49,477 bases of DNA, taken from NCBI GenBank assembly GCA_026982555.1, contig JALSGT010000118.1, positions 1 to 49,477 of the forward strand, given 5' to 3'. Below, in pieces: positions 35,916 through 44,599 of this stretch. Origin of the DNA: Chromatiales bacterium (GTDB lineage Bacteria; Pseudomonadota; Gammaproteobacteria; SZUA-152). The notes under the pieces were generated by a model, which had not been told where the DNA came from, ran no database searches, and saw nothing but the letters and a program-made list of their open reading frames with translations. The translations under genes and the position numbers were made by a program. The stretch's first letter is position 1. Each line of letters opens with the position of its first letter.

Positions 35916-36464
35916 TCAGAAAGCGGGTTTTTCCGGTGCAGCGTTATAGCGTTCCACCGAGGCCATAATTTCCGCTTTGGCTTCATCCGGACCCACCCAG
36001 TCATCGATTTTCACCCACTTGCCATCTTCAAGATCTTTGTAATGCTCGAAGAAATGGGCAATTTGTTTCAATAACAGTGGGGGCATATCATCCAGCGTCT
36101 TTACACTGCGGTATTGCACAGCAAGTTTATCCACAGGTACAGCAAGAACTTTAGCATCAATACCAGATTCATCAGTCATTTGCAGCATACCAATCGGACG
36201 GCAACGAATCACCGAACCACTGATCAATGGCGTTGGTGTAACCACTAACACGTCGGTTGCATCACCGTCTTCAGACAGCGTCTGCGGGACGTAGCCATAG
36301 TTGCAGGGATAAAACATGGCGGTATTCATGAAACGATCCACAAACATGGCACCCGTTTCTTTATCCACTTCGTATTTTACCGGATCACTGTGTGAGGGGA
36401 TCTCAATGATGACGTTGATGTCGTCAGGGACACTCGCTCCCGAATTCACTCGCTCAAGATTCAT
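35916..36464 (-). CDS. ppa: Inorganic pyrophosphatase (family I)
   Basis: Ppa hydrolyses pyrophosphate to two phosphates in the cytoplasm. The 182-residue protein is a normal family I enzyme: [28 protein letters not shown] and the metal-binding signature [11 protein letters not shown] with its three aspartates, then [10 protein letters not shown] ribosome binding site AAGGAGC precedes the start on the minus strand. It lies about 1.7 kb from a pyrophosphate-type phosphofructokinase gene, which would compete for the same substrate. Confidence 0.96.
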
Positions 36465-36554
36465 TGTTTTTGCTCCTTGTAGTTACTATAAAATCATTAG
36501 TCACGGCTGCCTGGGCTACCCTGTCCCCCGGTAACAAGCGTTGTACCGCATCTG

Positions 36555-36590
36555 GAAAAAACGCACGAGGGGCCGACATGTCGGCCCCTC
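36555..36590 (-). terminator. Intrinsic terminator of the Sel1-repeat gene
   Basis: A perfect 24-bp palindrome (36567-36590, GAGGGGCCGACA and complement) is followed on the minus strand, after five bases, by six T (complement of 36556-36561). It lies 160 bases beyond the stop of the minus-strand gene at 36751. It separates that gene from ppa. Confidence 0.65.
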
Positions 36591-36750
36591 AAAAAAACGG
36601 ATGCACAACCCGGCGTCGCGCGTATTGCAGCTGATTGTACCGTAATTAGGATGGACGAGAAACCAGGGTATTCCTGAGGGGTGTAACCACTTTCGCTCTG
36701 TTCTGTGACATCAATAAACTGATTAATCTATACCCAAAGCACAGGGGGCG

Positions 36751-37506
36751 TTAACAAAAAGCACAGTTGCGCGCACGGTATGTTGCTTTGACATGCCCCT
36801 GCTCAGCGGCAGCTTTGTACCATTTTTGTGCTGTTTTTTTATTTTTCTTAACGCCTCGCCCCTTGTTATACAACTCACCCAGATTATATTGCGCATCGGC
36901 ATGACCTAGCTCAGCCGCTTTACTAAACCATTCTGCTGCCTGCTTGTAATCGCGATCAACACCCTTGCCTTTGAGAAAATTAAACCCCGTATCAAAGGCA
37001 GCCTGCGCATTCGAGGGGCGGTTACTTTCATCCTCGTTGGAAAATCCGGACAAAACCTGTTTGGCCATTTTATGGCCTTGGCCCGCAGCCAGATTAAGCC
37101 ATTTCAGAGCTGTTTCCTGATTTTCATCAAGCCCTGACTCACCGGTTTGATACAACGTCCCCAATAAATATTGAGAAGGCGCATAGCCTTTTTGAGCAGC
37201 CCTTCTAATGTATTCAACAGCAACCTCAGGGTCGGTCTCTGCCACATCATCACTCAAATAAATTTTACCCAGGCGATGCAAAGCCAGGTAATAATCCTGG
37301 TCTGCGGATTTTTTCAACCAAAATAATGCCAGTTTCTTATTTTCTTCAACCCCCTGGCCTTGCAGATACATCAACCCCAGCGTGTACTGGGCTCGCGGGG
37401 ATTCCTCATACTTGACCTCTTCGAAAACATCGTCGGTCAAATCATGATCTGCTATGACGAAAAACGGGAGTAATGCTACCAACACGCCCAATAATATCTT
37501 TTTCAT
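36751..37506 (-). CDS. Exported Sel1/TPR-repeat protein
   Basis: The frame is open to 37587, but the start is likely the ATG at 37506 (or 37509), giving about 251 residues with a signal peptide MKKILLGVLVALLPFFVIA. The mature part consists of Sel1-like repeats: AQYTLGLMYLQGQGV, APSQYLLGTLYQTGE, AFDTGFNFLKGKGVDRDYKQAAEWFSKAAE and AQYNLGELYNKGRGV, KKNKKTAQKWYKAAAEQGH. Such solenoids mediate protein contacts, often in the periplasm. The C-terminus NCAFC carries two cysteines that could form a disulfide. The partner is unknown. A terminator lies downstream at 36555-36590. Confidence 0.85.
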   Translation of the reverse strand: MKKILLGVLVALLPFFVIADHDLTDDVFEEVKYEESPRAQYTLGLMYLQGQGVEENKKLALFWLKKSADQDYYLALHRLGKIYLSDDVAETDPEVAVEYIRRAAQKGYAPSQYLLGTLYQTGESGLDENQETALKWLNLAAGQGHKMAKQVLSGFSNEDESNRPSNAQAAFDTGFNFLKGKGVDRDYKQAAEWFSKAAELGHADAQYNLGELYNKGRGVKKNKKTAQKWYKAAAEQGHVKATYRARNCAFC

Positions 37507-37776
37507 CATTAACTGAAACCCTGTCATGTAAAATCTCGTATGTTCAAGGGGTACTATTGCAGTACCTGACATACATAAAACAAGCACCGTCTGCTTTCGG
37601 TCCTACAAAAAAACATGCCCACATCAGGTTGTCGGAAAAAACAACTGAAACTTTAGGGCATACCCTTAATGACGCAAGGCAGTACTATCGGCCTGGTGGT
37701 CAAAATGACTGTACCTTTTAGCCATCAGACCTCTCTTTTACTTTAGTTGGTGCTCTCCGCCAACATGTTACCCTAA

Positions 37777-37832
37777 ATTCCGCCGTTGAACGGCCTGTAG
37801 AGTGCGTTGAATGTTGTGGCTGGCAAGGCGCG
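37777..37832 (-). repeat. Dispersed repeat R, minus-strand copy
   Basis: Read on the minus strand the segment runs GCCAGCCACAACATTCAACG, then CACTCTACAGGCCGTTCAAC, then GGCGGAATTTAGG. The plus-strand segment at 41212-41270 repeats it with a handful of changes, and 7735-7790 is a degenerate copy. The end of the repeat resembles the separate TCAACTGCGGAAT motifs at 7561, 8283 and 37972. Confidence 0.6.
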
Positions 37833-37966
37833 AGAAGAGTAATAGCCCGCTATTGCGATGATGCTCAAGGCAGCCAGGCGCAAAAGGCAACGTGCTATAC
37901 AGGTCGTAGCGACTCACCCAACAAACTATTATCAATATATGTAAATACATCCTCGAAGCAGTCAAC

Positions 37967-37989
37967 TGCGGAATCCAGGGTTACCAACA
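37967..37989 (+). repeat. Isolated TCAACTGCGGAAT motif
   Basis: The 13-base word TCAACTGCGGAAT (37972-37984) with flanks AGCA and CCAGGG recurs on the minus strand at 7561-7573 and inside the MITE-like element at 8283-8295, in each case with AG following two bases later. It probably marks one end of a mobile or decayed repeat. Confidence 0.45.
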
Positions 37990-38167
37990 AATCACATACC
38001 ACAAAAATCAGATAAAACAGCGCTTGTTTTTCACGCTGGTGAATATACGTTTCTACATGGTTTAAAACCTGCCACATTCACCACCAACATCAGTGACTGA
38101 TGATACTCGGGTTTGTTGAACAACAGGAAGACTTATTGCGCAAACCCCACCACGAAACATACCCAAA

Positions 38168-39433
38168 CTACTTAACCTTAAAAGGTTTATCCAACTTCTT
38201 TTTCACAGCAGCATTTTTCAATGTCACATACTGGGGCAAACCATTTTTGAAGGGCGGGTAATCCTCCCCTTGAATCAGGGGCTGCAAATAATGACGACAG
38301 CGCGGGGTAATATGGAAGCCGTCTTTGCTGATGTAGTTACGCGGCATCATCTTCTCTACGTTAGCCACCCGTGTCAACCTGGCTTCACTGATTTTCCACT
38401 TGTACGGCTTACTGGAAATACGTTTTATAGCCGGCATTACTGCATTTTTACCCTCCAGTGCCATTTCGACGGCGGCCTTGCCTACCGCATAAGCCTGCTC
38501 AACATCGGTTTTGGATGCAATGTGTCGTGCTGCACGTTGCAGATAGTCGGCAACAGCCCAGTGATATTTGTAACCATGCCTGGCCTGAATCATCTGCGCC
38601 ACCACCGGGGCAACTCCACCCAACTGGCTATGACCAAAAACATCACGCGCACCAGACTCAGCAAGGAAGGTACCATTTTTATAACGCACCCCTTCGGAAA
38701 CGACAATGGCACAGTAGCCACACTCATCGACCACCTGTTTTACCCGCGCCATGAATTTGCGTTCATTAAAAGCCACTTCCGGGAACAGAATGATCTGCGG
38801 TGCATCACCGATATTTTCTGCGGCAAGACCACCGGCGGCGGCAATCCAACCGGCATGACGCCCCATAACCTCCATCACAAATATTTTGGTTGAGGTTTTA
38901 GCCATGGAGGCCACATCAAAAGCGGCTTCACGAATGGAGACAGCCACATATTTGGCCACTGAACCAAAGCCGGGGCAGTTATCCGTGATGGGCAGATCAT
39001 TATCGACGGTCTTGGGTATATGAATCGCCTGAATGGGATAACCCAAAGATTTGGAGATTTGTGAGACCTTTAAACACGTATCCGCAGAGTCACCCCCCCC
39101 GTTGTAAAAAAAATAACCAATATTATGCGCAGCAAATACTTCAATCAGACGTTCATATTCAGCACGATTATCATCCAGGCTCTTAAGCTTGTATCGACAG
39201 GAGCCAAACGCACCGGATGGTGTGTGGCGAAGTGCGGCAATAGCACGCGCGGAGTCCTTGCTGGTATCGATCAGGTCTTCAGTCAAGGCACCAATGATGC
39301 CATTGCGGCCAGCATAAACCTTACCGATTTTGTCTTTATGCGTACGTGCGGTTTCAATCACAGCACACGCGCTTGCATTAATTACGGCTGTCACACCACC
39401 TGATTGCGCATAAAAGGCATTTTTCTTTGTCAT
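38168..39433 (-). CDS. pfp: Pyrophosphate-dependent 6-phosphofructokinase
   Basis: PFP interconverts fructose 6-phosphate and fructose 1,6-bisphosphate using pyrophosphate instead of ATP, and works in both directions. The frame is open to 39526, but the ATG at 39433 follows GGGAG and begins MTKKNAFYAQSGG, giving 421 residues. The motif PKTVDNDLP, with the lysine typical of pyrophosphate users, and GGGDS in the phosphoryl-donor loop (D in the second key position) favour pyrophosphate over ATP. The substrate motif MEVMGRHAGWIAA is intact. It is divergent from adk across 454 bases and lies near ppa. Confidence 0.9.
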   Translation of the reverse strand: MTKKNAFYAQSGGVTAVINASACAVIETARTHKDKIGKVYAGRNGIIGALTEDLIDTSKDSARAIAALRHTPSGAFGSCRYKLKSLDDNRAEYERLIEVFAAHNIGYFFYNGGGDSADTCLKVSQISKSLGYPIQAIHIPKTVDNDLPITDNCPGFGSVAKYVAVSIREAAFDVASMAKTSTKIFVMEVMGRHAGWIAAAGGLAAENIGDAPQIILFPEVAFNERKFMARVKQVVDECGYCAIVVSEGVRYKNGTFLAESGARDVFGHSQLGGVAPVVAQMIQARHGYKYHWAVADYLQRAARHIASKTDVEQAYAVGKAAVEMALEGKNAVMPAIKRISSKPYKWKISEARLTRVANVEKMMPRNYISKDGFHITPRCRHYLQPLIQGEDYPPFKNGLPQYVTLKNAAVKKKLDKPFKVK

Positions 39434-39887
39434 GTCATTTATCTCCCAAAGTGCATTAACCCTCTCACCAACACGTACAATAACGACCCGGATATTGTCA
39501 TGAAGCAAATCCAGCATACCCGCCACATTTGTTTTCAGACTACAAATACAGTATCAAAATCATCATCTCTCATTTTCATATACTGCGCACAGCACACCGG
39601 TGAAGACTCACCATCTTTGCTTACCTTGAAAAATACACCGATAACATGCCCCATTAACAGTAAAATTCATTGCACAAACTATTGACTTACCCAATAGCTT
39701 AAGAGTAGGTTTAGCGCGAACATGAATGAATGTACTATTGCTGTTCGTATTCTGTCGCATTTTGATAACCAGCAGCAAAAGATGGTTTGCTGTCATTTTG
39801 CTTAACATGCCGTCTGTACATAAACGTGCATTGAAGTAACTATTAACGAACACAGCCAGCTTAATACAATGAAGGGAGGCTGCCGAG
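39434..39887. other. Divergent intergenic region pfp / adk
   Basis: No gene is apparent. Promoters for pfp (minus) and adk (plus) must be here, but I could not place either firmly. The strong Shine-Dalgarno of adk (AAGGGAGG, 39872-39879) lies at its right end. The region is locally AT-rich. Confidence 0.5.
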
Positions 39888-41039
39888 TTGAGGATCGTAC
39901 TGATCGGCGCACCTGGGTCCGGCAAGGGCACACAAGCAAAAAAATTAGTTGCCAAATACGGGATTCCGCAGATTTCCACGGGCGATCTGTTACGTGCCGC
40001 CGTCGCTGCACAAACACCGCTTGGATTACAGGCCAAAGCCGCAATGGATGCAGGCCAGCTGGTATCTGATCCAATTGTACTGGGCATGATGGAAGAGCGA
40101 TTAAACGATAAAGATACACGAAAAGGCTTCATTCTTGACGGGTTCCCACGAAACTTACCTCAGGCAGCGGCGCTCGATACCATTTTGAATCGCATGGGTC
40201 GTCCGTTACAATCCGCCATCCTGATTAACGTGGACTTTGACCTGTTGATACAGCGCATCACAGGACGACGCACCTGTAGATCCTGCGGACAGATGTACAA
40301 CATTTATACATCTCCGCCCAAAATGGACGGTCACTGTGATTTATGCGGTGGCGCACTGCACCATCGTGCAGACGATAATGAAGATACCATCAGCAACCGT
40401 TTGCGTGTATTTGAAACACAAACCGAGCCCATGGTCAGGCATTATCAAATACAGGGAAAATTGACGGTCATAGATGGCAGCGATGATATCAATAAAATCT
40501 TCATCCGTTTATGTAAAGCAATAGAGCAATCAACATTAAGCAACCTGGAAATAGCAAGACCTAAAAAAACACTCAGAGACCCACCTCCAAAGGTGGAAAC
40601 TTTTGAAAAAACAACTAAATTAGAGCAAAAAGCTAAAGAACTTTTGGACATAACCGAAACAAACCCAGAAGTACCACCATTACAATCAAACAGCGGTGCC
40701 ATTAAGGAGGCAACAACCATGGCGGTGAAAAAGAAAGCTCGCAAGAGTGCGGCCAAAAAGAAGGTCGTTAAAAAGAAAACCACGGCTAAGAAGAAGGCCG
40801 TGAGAAAAAAATCAGCTAAGAAAAAGGCCGTGAAGAAAAAGTCGGCCAAGAAAAAGGCGGTAAAGAAAAAAGTCGTCAAAAAGAAGGGTAGAAAGAAAAA
40901 ATCAGTCAAGAAAAAGGCGGTAAAGAAGAAAGCAGCAAAGAAAAAAGTAACCCGGAAAAAGAAAACGACCAAAAAAAAGGCCGCTAAGAAAAAAACAGCC
41001 AAAAAGAAGGCCAGGAAGAAAAAAGCAAAGGCCAAATGA
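39888..41039 (+). CDS. adk: Adenylate kinase with histone-H1-like C-terminal extension
   Basis: Adk interconverts AMP plus ATP with two ADP. The start is a TTG at 39888, eight bases after AAGGGAGG; no in-frame ATG fits. Residues 1 to about 215 form a complete enzyme: P-loop GAPGSGKGT (7-15), STGDLLR, GFILDGFPRN and a LID with four cysteines (C130, C133, C150, C153), the zinc type found in many Gram-positive enzymes but not in E. coli. The frame then continues through a linker of about 60 residues into a tail of XXKKK pentads (about 278-383), making 383 residues against a usual 215. A Shine-Dalgarno and ATG lie at the tail start, so the tail may also be made alone. A terminator follows at 41118. 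Confidence 0.93.
   Translation: MRIVLIGAPGSGKGTQAKKLVAKYGIPQISTGDLLRAAVAAQTPLGLQAKAAMDAGQLVSDPIVLGMMEERLNDKDTRKGFILDGFPRNLPQAAALDTILNRMGRPLQSAILINVDFDLLIQRITGRRTCRSCGQMYNIYTSPPKMDGHCDLCGGALHHRADDNEDTISNRLRVFETQTEPMVRHYQIQGKLTVIDGSDDINKIFIRLCKAIEQSTLSNLEIARPKKTLRDPPPKVETFEKTTKLEQKAKELLDITETNPEVPPLQSNSGAIKEATTMAVKKKARKSAAKKKVVKKKTTAKKKAVRKKSAKKKAVKKKSAKKKAVKKKVVKKKGRKKKSVKKKAVKKKAAKKKVTRKKKTTKKKAAKKKTAKKKARKKKAKAK
40704..40721 (+). promoter_or_regulatory. Internal ribosome binding site within adk
   Basis: AAGGAGG (40704-40710), a perfect anti-16S match, lies eight bases before an ATG at 40719-40721. That ATG is in frame with adk (codon 278) and exactly precedes the Lys-rich tail. A site this good at the domain boundary is unlikely by chance and suggests independent initiation. 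Confidence 0.65.
40719..41039 (+). CDS. Histone-H1-like Lys-rich protein nested in adk
   Basis: Starting at the internal ATG this gives 106 residues, of which I count 59 lysines and 5 arginines, arranged as about 17 units of two small residues plus KKK (AVKKK, SAKKK, TTKKK, AAKKK). Such composition is typical of bacterial H1-like proteins (Hc1/Hc2, BpH1, AlgP tails), which bind DNA without sequence preference and compact the nucleoid. It shares frame and stop with adk, so it is either a nested gene, the remains of a separate gene now fused to adk, or both. There is no other domain. The reverse strand reads as a Phe-rich frame, which is an artefact of AAG/AAA codons. Confidence 0.55.
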   Translation: MAVKKKARKSAAKKKVVKKKTTAKKKAVRKKSAKKKAVKKKSAKKKAVKKKVVKKKGRKKKSVKKKAVKKKAAKKKVTRKKKTTKKKAAKKKTAKKKARKKKAKAK

Positions 41040-41068
41040 GCGCCGTTAGTCGGCTGATGGTCATTTAG

Positions 41069-42319
<1,251 letters not shown>

Positions 42320-42532: not shown

Positions 42533-44386
42533 TTAGTCTTTTGTGACACTTTTTTTCCGGGTGCTTTTTTTGGTTTTATCTTTGTTTTTTGGTTTGGCTT
42601 TTAGCTTGCTGCGCTTTTCTGATTTTTTATCCGCTGCCACAGGTTTGCCGTCTGCGCCTACCCGGGAAATTTTTAATGCCTGCCCTGCCACCCGGGTTTT
42701 AATCAAATCCTGAAAGACTTCTTTGGGCATACCTTCGGGCAGGTCCACATAGCTAAAGTCGTCATGGATTTTGATGTGGCCGATATGTTTGCCATCAAGC
42801 CCGGCTTCATTGGCAATGGCTCCAACGATATTGCCCGGTTGCACGTCATGGCTGTGACCAACTTCAATACGGAAACGTTCCAGGCCTTCAGCAGGGGGCA
42901 TTTCTTTTTTCGGTGTACGCTCTTTACGCGGGCGAATTTTAGCTTCACCACCGTCCCTATTGTTATCGCGTTTACCATCACGTTTGTTGCCGCGTTTGTC
43001 TCCACGCTTATTGAATGCAGGACGGTCATCCTTGTCCCAGCTGTCGCGGGACTGACGTTGCGGTTTGTTTTGCAGCAATAAGGGTGTGTCACCTTGCAGC
43101 AAATGCGCCAGTGCGGCGGCAATTTCCAGTGCGGGCACGTTGTGCTCTTGCTGATATTGTTCGATGAGCTGATAAAAAATGCCCATTTCTTCCGTCGCCA
43201 GAGTATCGGTAATACGTTGTTTGAATTTGTCGATACGTTTGTCATTGATGATTTCTGTGGATGGCAATTCCATACGTTCGATTTTTTTCCGGGTGGCCTG
43301 CTCAATGGAATACAACAGGCGTTTTTCACGCGGGGCAACAAACAGAATGGCATCTCCCTGACGACCGGCACGACCGGTACGACCAATGCGATGCACATAA
43401 GCTTCGGTGTCGTAGGGGATATCGTAATTGACAACGTGGCTGATACGCTCCACGTCCAGCCCGCGGGCAGCAACATCGGTGGCAACAAGAATATCCAGTT
43501 TACCTTTTTTCAGATTATTAATACTGCGTTCACGCAGGTTTTGCTGAATATCACCATTGATAGCGGCAGCGGCATAACCACGGGCAGACAGTTTTTCAGC
43601 CAGTTCCACGGTGGCCGTTTTGGTGCGCACAAAGACTATCATTGCATCGAAGGGTTCGGCTTCGCAGATTCGCGTCAATGCATCGAGTTTGTGCATACCG
43701 CTCACCGGCCAAAAGCGCTGCCGAATAGTGTCAACCGTTGCCGCCTTGGCTTTGATGGTAATTTGTGCCGGGTTACGCAAATGGCGCGTAGCAATGCGCC
43801 GGATTTGCGTTGGCATGGTGGCGGAGAACAAAGCAATTTGTCGCTCTTCCGGCGTCTGTTCCAGTATCCATTCCACGTCATCAACAAAACCCATGCGCAG
43901 CATTTCGTCGGCTTCGTCCAGCACCATGGCGCTGAGCTGGTCCAGTTTGAGCGTGCCGCGACGCATGTGATCCATCACCCGGCCCGGCGTGCCAACCACC
44001 ACATGTACGCCACGTTGCAGGGCACGAATCTGGCCACGGTAATCCTGACCACCATAAACCGGTAAGACGTGAAAACCTTTCAGGTGCTTGGCATATTTCT
44101 GAAAAGCTTCAGCCACCTGAATAGCCAGTTCGCGCGTCGGTGCCAGCACCAGCACCTGCGGATTTTTTTGTTTAAGATCAAGGTTAGAGAGCAGAGGTAA
44201 AGCAAACGCAGCCGTTTTACCAGTGCCGGTTTGTGCCTGACCCAGTACATCCCTGCCCTCCAGCAACAAGGGAATGGTTTCTGCCTGAATGGGCGAGGGA
44301 CTTTCGTAGCCCACTTCGTCCAAAGCCTTAAGAATGGGTTTGCTCAGCGCCAGTTGATCGAACGCGGTTACCGTGTCGGTAGTCAT
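42533..44386 (-). CDS. deaD: DEAD-box RNA helicase, DeaD/CsdA type
   Basis: This ATP-dependent RNA helicase acts in ribosome assembly and mRNA decay, often in cold. The frame is open to 44440; I prefer the ATG at 44386 (617 residues), where MTTDTVTAFDQLALS begins the Q-motif region. Motifs in order: AQTGTGKTAA, PTRELA, DEADEMLRMGF, SATMP, ATDVAARGLD and HRIGRTGRAGR. After a helical region and a basic Arg/Asp/Gly-rich linker comes a DbpA-like RNA-binding domain (RFRIEVGHSHDVQPGNIVGA, FSYVDLP). A Lys-rich tail ends the protein. The gene is convergent with hemB. Confidence 0.93.
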   Translation of the reverse strand: MTTDTVTAFDQLALSKPILKALDEVGYESPSPIQAETIPLLLEGRDVLGQAQTGTGKTAAFALPLLSNLDLKQKNPQVLVLAPTRELAIQVAEAFQKYAKHLKGFHVLPVYGGQDYRGQIRALQRGVHVVVGTPGRVMDHMRRGTLKLDQLSAMVLDEADEMLRMGFVDDVEWILEQTPEERQIALFSATMPTQIRRIATRHLRNPAQITIKAKAATVDTIRQRFWPVSGMHKLDALTRICEAEPFDAMIVFVRTKTATVELAEKLSARGYAAAAINGDIQQNLRERSINNLKKGKLDILVATDVAARGLDVERISHVVNYDIPYDTEAYVHRIGRTGRAGRQGDAILFVAPREKRLLYSIEQATRKKIERMELPSTEIINDKRIDKFKQRITDTLATEEMGIFYQLIEQYQQEHNVPALEIAAALAHLLQGDTPLLLQNKPQRQSRDSWDKDDRPAFNKRGDKRGNKRDGKRDNNRDGGEAKIRPRKERTPKKEMPPAEGLERFRIEVGHSHDVQPGNIVGAIANEAGLDGKHIGHIKIHDDFSYVDLPEGMPKEVFQDLIKTRVAGQALKISRVGADGKPVAADKKSEKRSKLKAKPKNKDKTKKSTRKKSVTKD

Positions 44387-44599
44387 ATGTTTTGCCTGTA
44401 CTTGGATGATTGAACGCGAGGAAAGCTCGCTTTTCATCAAAAAAGTAAGAGCCGGAATTCGCGGGAAAGCCTGTCGCCTCTACCCACAGATACGACTGGG
44501 CGGAACCGGAAAGGGCGCGTAGTGTACAGGCTTACGCTTCGTCGCGCACACTTTTTGTGCATAAATCATGCGCTGGCAGTAAATCAGAGGGGAAATAAC

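Follow-up and report, generated by a model that had tools for sequence, protein, structure and literature searches.

A lysine-tailed adenylate kinase gene with a conserved in-frame internal start and a candidate FliA-type promoter probably encodes a second, histone H1-like protein

One locus in the window (the whole stretch of 49,477 nucleotides that was analysed) probably encodes two proteins in a single reading frame: an adenylate kinase (Adk) fused to a lysine-rich tail, and the same tail as a free histone H1-like protein. The fusion, the conserved internal start and the conserved bipartite element in the linker are visible in the DNA itself. In its fullest form, which we advance tentatively and rate slightly under an even chance, the proposal is that the reading frame of an enzyme gene contains, in the same frame, a complete second gene (FliA-type promoter, leader, ribosome binding site and H1-like product). 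Its codons would double as the polyanion anchor of an Adk and, under a flagellar-type and perhaps dedicated sigma factor (FliA2), as a free nucleoid protein, which would independently parallel the way sigma-28 controls an H1-like protein in Chlamydia. Each of the ingredients has precedents (in-frame internal starts, FliA promoters inside genes, proteins with Lys tails); what appears to be new is their combination. The bipartite element in the linker is a new observation of the present analysis. The earlier note on this DNA had described one frame at 39888-41039, a tail with 59 Lys in 106 residues, and AAGGAGG and ATG in that frame; these coordinates and counts were correct (Table 1).

Table 1. 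Features of the locus and its neighbours in the window.
Feature	Position	Strand	Basis or remark
Fusion ORF	39888 (TTG) to 41039 (TGA)	+	383 codons/383 aa, single open frame, read from the sequence
Fusion ribosome binding site AAGGGAGG	39872..39879	+	sequence; anti-SD energy -11.3 kcal/mol; TTG start 39888
Adenylate kinase domain, 214 residues, Cys4 lid	39888..40529	+	Pfam/NCBIfam, invariant residues, solved relatives, pLDDT
Linker, 63 residues	40530..40718	+	two DNA-level conserved elements inside
Bipartite element TAAAGA-N14-CCGAAA, FliA/sigma-28-type promoter candidate	40634..40659	+	19/19 family loci, fixed spacing, matrix
Internal ribosome binding site AAGGAGG	40704..40710	+	conservation, codon tests, anti-SD energy
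Nested in-frame ORF, 106 residues, 59 Lys	40719..41039	+	candidate free H1-like protein, also the fusion tail
Intrinsic terminator-like hairpin, 3' of stop	41118..41145	+	consensus match only
pfp (presumed)	38168..39526	-	divergent neighbour, conserved in family
hemB (presumed)	41300..42319	+	downstream neighbour, conserved in family

Residues 1-214 of the fusion matched solved adenylate kinases over their full length as a complete Adk, and scored above the cut-offs of Pfam ADK (181.6 bits vs 26.8) and NCBIfam NF001380 (286.2 bits vs 251). In an alignment of 17 sequences, the P-loop residues G7, G10, G12, K13, G14 and T15 were invariant, as were R36, R88, R123, R160 and R171; the P-loop and conserved Arg residues have a catalytic role in adenylate kinases. 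Among the four lid cysteines, C130 and C150 were invariant in the same alignment and C133 and C153 nearly so. By profile score and by these P-loop and Arg residues, the domain was assigned as a putative adenylate kinase. The predicted structure gave the kinase mostly pLDDT values of about 90 or more, and most residues after 222 fell below 50. The linker is predicted to be mostly disordered and was poorly conserved at the protein level. The tail contains 5 Arg and 18 KKK triplets in addition to its Lys content, and is called histone H1-like by composition only, the Pfam HC2 model (histone H1-like nucleoprotein) giving the fusion 10.6 bits, below its cut-off of 40. The NF010381 (PRK13808) score of 178.9 bits was likewise below cut-off (426). 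The hairpin downstream of the stop codon has 12 pairs, 8 of them G-C, and a T-rich tail. Rfam and tRNA scans across the window returned no match.

Among 369 class-level genomes searched, 122 had an Adk of this type with an E-value of at most 1e-72, and tail status was read at all 122 loci. A basic tail was present in 85 of the 122 by a K+R rule, which let in three short Arg-rich ends (L195, L207, L213) and left out the Ala/Pro/Lys tail of L219; for Lys the count was about 82. Collapsing identical proteins reduced 121 tailed rows to 114 distinct ones, 19 in the window's family (f1) and 95 outside it; L031 and L032 duplicate L007 and L008, and each was counted once. Tail presence took 8 changes on a quick tree that comprised 213 distinct kinase domains. 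The 19 family rows formed one clade (support 97), nested in a group of 117 rows of which 107 were tailed (support 93, midpoint root). Since the family clade sits within a mostly tailed group, the tailed Adk is probably older than the family. The earlier note knew of no described example of such a locus; Lys-tailed Adk is widespread in Gammaproteobacteria by this survey, and the fusion is therefore old and not what is new here.

The family sample comprised 24 genomes, the window's included, and a tailed Adk was found in 19 of them, from five genera. The five without a complete tailed Adk were 80-93% complete, one being in 1070 contigs, and one of them (G001) carried a fragment of a tailed Adk. 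An adk frame without a long tail was also present in all 23 other family genomes, so the tailed gene is identified on these counts as an accessory (second) Adk. Because of this second frame, it is doubtful that the tailed gene controls the housekeeping energy balance. In the family, pfp lies divergently upstream in 18 of the 19 loci and hemB downstream in 18 of the 19, the one missing case being a contig end for each gene. We take ORF 38168..39526 of the window to be this pfp, encoding a phosphofructokinase that is presumably PPi-dependent, and ORF 41300..42319 to be hemB. Tailed loci outside the family with 1 kb upstream had pfp or ppa there in 38 of 41 distinct cases, compared with 15 of 63 untailed loci, a set that includes other phyla. 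The genes pfp and ppa give the locus surroundings of phosphate-energy metabolism. In the window, ppa, a Sel1-repeat gene, pfp, adk and hemB are grouped together at 35916-42319.

Other copies of the tail were sought in the window's genome and the 24 family genomes, and only adk loci were returned by a search that was insensitive to other repeat patterns, matching in 6 of 24 genomes though 19 have the tail. Lys-rich stretches were found beside 2 of 100 untailed adk loci. In one (L029), a separate 45-residue Lys-rich ORF (MAATKKALAKK...) lies downstream of a tailless Adk of another type; in the other (L058), the stretch is a 412-codon frame at the locus edge. The earlier note had held that separate adk and histone genes in close relatives would count against it: none were seen in the 19 family loci, and stand-alone Lys-rich genes may still exist elsewhere in these genomes, given the insensitivity of the search.

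At the start of the tail, 9 nt separate AAGGAG from the in-frame ATG at 40719. The window contains 465 in-frame ATGs at codon 31 or later of six-frame ORFs of at least 100 codons; two of these were preceded by an SD-like match of at least 5 nt at a distance of 4-10 nt, and 40719 was the sole 6-nt case. AAGGAG (17 loci) or AAGGAA (2 loci), followed after 9 nt by an in-frame ATG at the tail start, was found in all 19 tailed loci of the family. The linker ahead of this site varied in length (40-74 residues), and linker sequences also differed. An automatic linker scan missed L008 and L016, in which the Lys-rich boundary had been set too early, and the sites were present on reading. The residue after the internal Met was Ala or Thr in 19/19. 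The frame was unbroken through the internal site in 19 family genomes, the window's included (L010 leaves its contig within the tail), which excludes the sequencing error raised as an objection in the earlier note. At the homologous place, AAGGA(G)-ATG occurred in none of the 95 distinct tailed Adks outside the family; one of them, L040, has a degenerate AAGGGGG ahead of an ATG there. In 15 of the 95, an SD-like string of at least 4 nt precedes an ATG, GTG or TTG elsewhere in the linker, with ATG in three (L049, L117, L217). The internal start thus seems, from this distribution, to be newer than the fusion and specific to the window's family.

Codon usage at the site points to constraint on the DNA. 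At the site, Lys was encoded by AAG in 19/19 loci, compared with 39 of 140 Lys codons (28%) linker-wide, and Glu by GAG in 17/19, compared with 17 of 141 (12%). On a tree of the kinase DNA, the site Lys codon changed 0 times and the Glu codon once; of 34 control two-fold codons with an invariant residue, none had 0 changes and two had 1. Under a two-state model fitted to the controls, the probability of AAG in all 19 was 0.0007-0.002, and the joint probability of AAG in all and GAG in at least 17 was 1.3e-5 to 8.2e-5, for tests that rest on 19 loci, several of them closely related. Mean anti-SD energy across the 19 loci was -10.5 kcal/mol at the internal site and -10.4 kcal/mol at the primary start, compared with a mean of -3.5 and a lowest value of -8.0 kcal/mol for 103 other in-frame ATGs of the kinase; the sister loci L009 and L011 had the weaker AAGGAA (-5.6 kcal/mol). 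Around the internal ATG, the RNA folded more weakly than in nearly all kinase windows in 9 of the 19 loci and ordinary in the other 10, the window's included. These comparisons indicate that selection acts on the DNA of the internal site, and that both SD and start are conserved at the nucleotide level, as a nested in-frame gene would require. The internal start is very probably in use. The earlier claim of two products from one locus is accordingly well supported, the internal ribosome binding site and ATG being conserved as DNA throughout the family's tailed loci.

The linker carries a further conserved element. The pattern [T/C][A/C]AAGA-N14-[C/T]CGA[A/G] was found with fixed spacing in 19/19 family linkers, 82-106 nt before the internal ATG; in the window its boxes are TAAAGA (40634-40639) and CCGAAA (40654-40659). 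The element was found by inspecting the alignment, to which the pattern was fitted, and a third-position control is the fairer measure: five third-codon bases within it were identical in 18 or 19 of the 19 loci, compared with 2 of 187 kinase third positions that reached 18/19. Three of the five sit where residues vary and two where Glu is found throughout; the codon before the element's GAA is Thr, Pro, Ala, Val or Ser, always xxC. Scored as boxes, T(A/C)AAG was present in 18/19 loci and CCGA at N15 in 17/19, the exceptions being CCAAG in L009 and TCGA in L013 and L014. Outside the family, T(A/C)AAG-N14-16-CCGA was found in 1 of 95 distinct tailed Adks (L039), near the kinase end. A search for a sigma-70 promoter found none in the linker. 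A reading of the element as GAACTT, a sigma-E-like sequence, was dropped, GAACTT being present in L001-L003 only. In the window's genus (linkers of L001-L008; window about 40590-40640), the codon-invariant stretch continues upstream of the TAAAGA box and is longer than a promoter core needs; it is perhaps an activator site or UP element.

The layout of the element, a TAAAG/TCAAG box and a CCGA box at N15, appears to be that of a sigma-28 promoter, the Escherichia coli tsr promoter being the nearest in likeness. Four family loci (L016, L018, L019, L020) carry the same boxes as tsr, TAAAG-N15-CCGAAAAT, which is FliA-dependent by ChIP-seq and RNA data, with expression of 630, vs 9 without fliA (PMC4183435). 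A FliA matrix was built from 23 E. coli sites, tsr among them. By this matrix, the element was the best position of the frame's plus strand in 15 of 19 loci and one of the best five in every locus. The window's copy scored 9.2 bits, 24th of 98,900 positions, vs a leave-one-out median of 15.8 for the E. coli sites, and that of L009 scored poorly (3.7). Genome-wide, the exact element was not enriched, with 36 matches in 24 genomes (14 in adk linkers) vs 33 for the reversed pattern. The conserved element suggests that the nested gene probably has its own candidate promoter in the linker, and we lean towards regarding it as active. Elsewhere in the window, a FliA-like TAAAG-N15-CCGACAAC at 37628-37655 (minus strand) had the window's second-best FliA matrix score; the listed GTG start (37587) of a Sel1-repeat gene, 36751-37587, follows it after about 40 nt.

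A FliA-type sigma factor appears to be encoded in the family, as a sigma-28 promoter would require: a FliA/WhiG model matched in 24/24 family genomes, and in 23/24 over its cut-off, the window's own included. Two FliA-type genes were found in 21 of 24 family genomes, compared with 1 of 33 other sampled genomes. The flagellar copy lies, in four loci that were read (L234 incomplete), beside genes we take to be flhG and cheY or cheZ. In L296 and L301 the second copy, FliA2, adjoins what are presumably recR, PilZ-like and Sel1-type genes. Only the flagellar copy was found in the window's genome (73% complete). A second FliA is also present in G056, which has an untailed Adk. As the family is one clade, the association of FliA2 with the tailed gene counts as a single coincidence. 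Promoter sites recognised among 30 family flagellin loci had a CGATA core with N16 or N15, and the CCGAAA core was found at none of these sites; the element of the linker, with CCGAAA or a close variant, departs here from the CCGATA of flagellin promoters in the same organisms. Of the 30 flagellin loci, seven had TAAAG-N16-CCGATAAG, and L238 and L244 had the TAAAG-N16 layout with TCGATA or ACGATA. L245 had a TAAAT-N15-CCGATAGG string, L249 a TCAAG-N15-CCGATAAG string (placed by its coordinates about 180 nt upstream of a different flagellin in the array), and L248 and L263 weak TCAAA strings; the other 17 had no match to the patterns used. Whether the sigma factor for the nested gene is of FliA type, perhaps FliA2, is in our estimate an even matter.

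All steps of the model from transcription onward are inferred. Transcription from upstream of 39888 would yield the first product, an accessory adenylate kinase that starts at the upstream TTG/ATG and ends in a disordered poly-Lys tail, together with some free tail through the internal ribosome binding site. The second product, starting at that site and the ATG at the beginning of the tail, would be a free H1-like basic protein of 106 residues here and 48-147 in the family. A FliA-type polymerase, possibly with FliA2, would start in the linker and give the free tail alone; its transcript would run to the terminator at 41118, the hairpin there ending both the fusion and the nested transcripts. 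Since an element of FliA-promoter type is conserved in the linker, the free tail is probably transcribed on its own, and this would uncouple its level from that of adk, the opposite of the coupling put forward in the earlier note. The free tail would most likely bind polyanions (DNA or polyphosphate, as AlgP does) and organise them, a binding and function to which we give about equal odds either way. On the fusion, the tail would hold the kinase at the polyanion, near sites where AMP and PPi arise, as the neighbouring pfp and, in some relatives, ppa suggest.

Several other readings of the site have to be weighed. A chance SD and ATG, or an assembly artefact, is barely credible: SD-like strings do arise randomly, as the 15 of 95 tailed Adks with one in the linker illustrate, but 19 unbroken frames with homologous sites refute chance or artefact, and only one of the window's 465 in-frame ATGs has a six-nucleotide SD. 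With a folded domain on one side of it and a disordered tail on the other, the SD-like sequence could slow ribosomes without any separate product; such slowing requires neither an ATG at fixed distance in 19/19 loci nor an upstream element, and is improbable. Equally improbable is that a once separate histone gene was joined to adk when a stop codon was lost, and that the start signals are its fossils. The tail does open with M-A/T-A/V-K, as free proteins do, and L029 has its separate small Lys-rich ORF after another adk type; against this, the clade that encloses the family consists mostly of tailed Adks that lack the site, and the signals persist although synonymous change has almost reached saturation (none of 34 control columns is unchanged).

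More weight attaches to a purely translational isoform, in which the internal ribosome binding site is used on adk mRNA and the bipartite element, instead of being a promoter, is a site for another protein or RNA. The evidence for the internal ribosome binding site stands alone, no enrichment of the exact element was found elsewhere, and its core differs from that of the family's flagellin promoters. Yet two conserved blocks at a fixed distance from each other, with a variable spacer, 82-106 nt before a start, have the look of a promoter, and the layout equals that of FliA-dependent tsr; we consider the isoform-only reading unlikely, and retain the internal promoter as the working proposal. 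As to the target of the tail, it is quite possible, somewhat short of even, that polyphosphate or RNA is bound instead of the nucleoid and that "histone" is a misnomer. The neighbours pfp and ppa are phosphate-energy genes, and the H1-like Lys repeat protein AlgP is associated with polyphosphate granules; AlgP tail peptides bind DNA too (PMC9239181), and the present evidence does not separate the polyanions.

The closest likeness is to other Lys-tailed gammaproteobacterial Adks, perhaps those of NF010381/PRK13808, in which an Adk is followed by a long Lys-rich tail. NF010381 positions 138-314 align weakly (24 bits) with a stretch including the window's tail; the fusion is far below cut-off, and in 14 control genomes the profile matched in 11, none over cut-off. 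The 95 distinct Lys-tailed Adks outside the family differ from the window's locus in lacking AAGGA(G)-ATG at the homologous place. Shorter C-terminal proteins made from in-frame internal starts are known as the IF2 isoforms and CheA-short. Cas11b, inside cas8b, is produced in the same way (PMC11899642). The second product proposed here differs from these in being basic and disordered, with a conserved promoter-like element ahead of it. AlgP of Pseudomonas aeruginosa carries a long, disordered tail of Lys repeats that resembles the C-terminus of H1, and the DNA binding of its tail peptides and its association with polyphosphate granules come from the same source; it is no Adk, its repeats are KPAA and its N-terminal domain is helical, and the portion of the paper at hand describes no nested start (PMC9239181). 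In Chlamydia, sigma-28 binds and drives the H1-like gene hctB, as proposed for the nested gene; hctB/Hc2 is not described as nested in an enzyme gene in the available text (PMC12282069), and the window's tail shares no sequence membership with Hc2, given its HC2 score. Intragenic FliA promoters are documented in E. coli, e.g., inside flhC for motAB-cheAW, where a promoter in a coding region drives another product, as would be the case here; the promoter in flhC drives a downstream gene (PMC4183435), whereas here the product would be the 3' part of the same frame. Among titles and abstract openings of the open-access literature, we found no description of a Lys-tailed Adk fusion or nested gene, nor of this combination in one frame with an H1-like product.

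If the model holds, the disordered tail of an enzyme would serve a second time, as an H1-like protein in its own right, and the signals for translating it, and probably for transcribing it, would be maintained within a linker that codes for protein. The second product would escape any annotation that lists a single start for each frame. The locus would offer a clean system for the origin of nested in-frame genes, with the tailed Adk seemingly older than the signals, which were added in one family. It would also raise a second, independent link between sigma-28 and an H1-like protein, and allow a test of whether a poly-Lys tail positions Adk at nucleic acid or polyphosphate.

Two further Lys-rich ends were observed. 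In L033 (3001-4197), the Lys tail turns into GEEKGQEESSQEK repeats near its end, which fits a frameshift in the Lys repeat, either an assembly error or real. In the window, the ORF at 42533-44440 (minus strand), which we take to encode a DEAD-box helicase, likewise ends Lys-rich.
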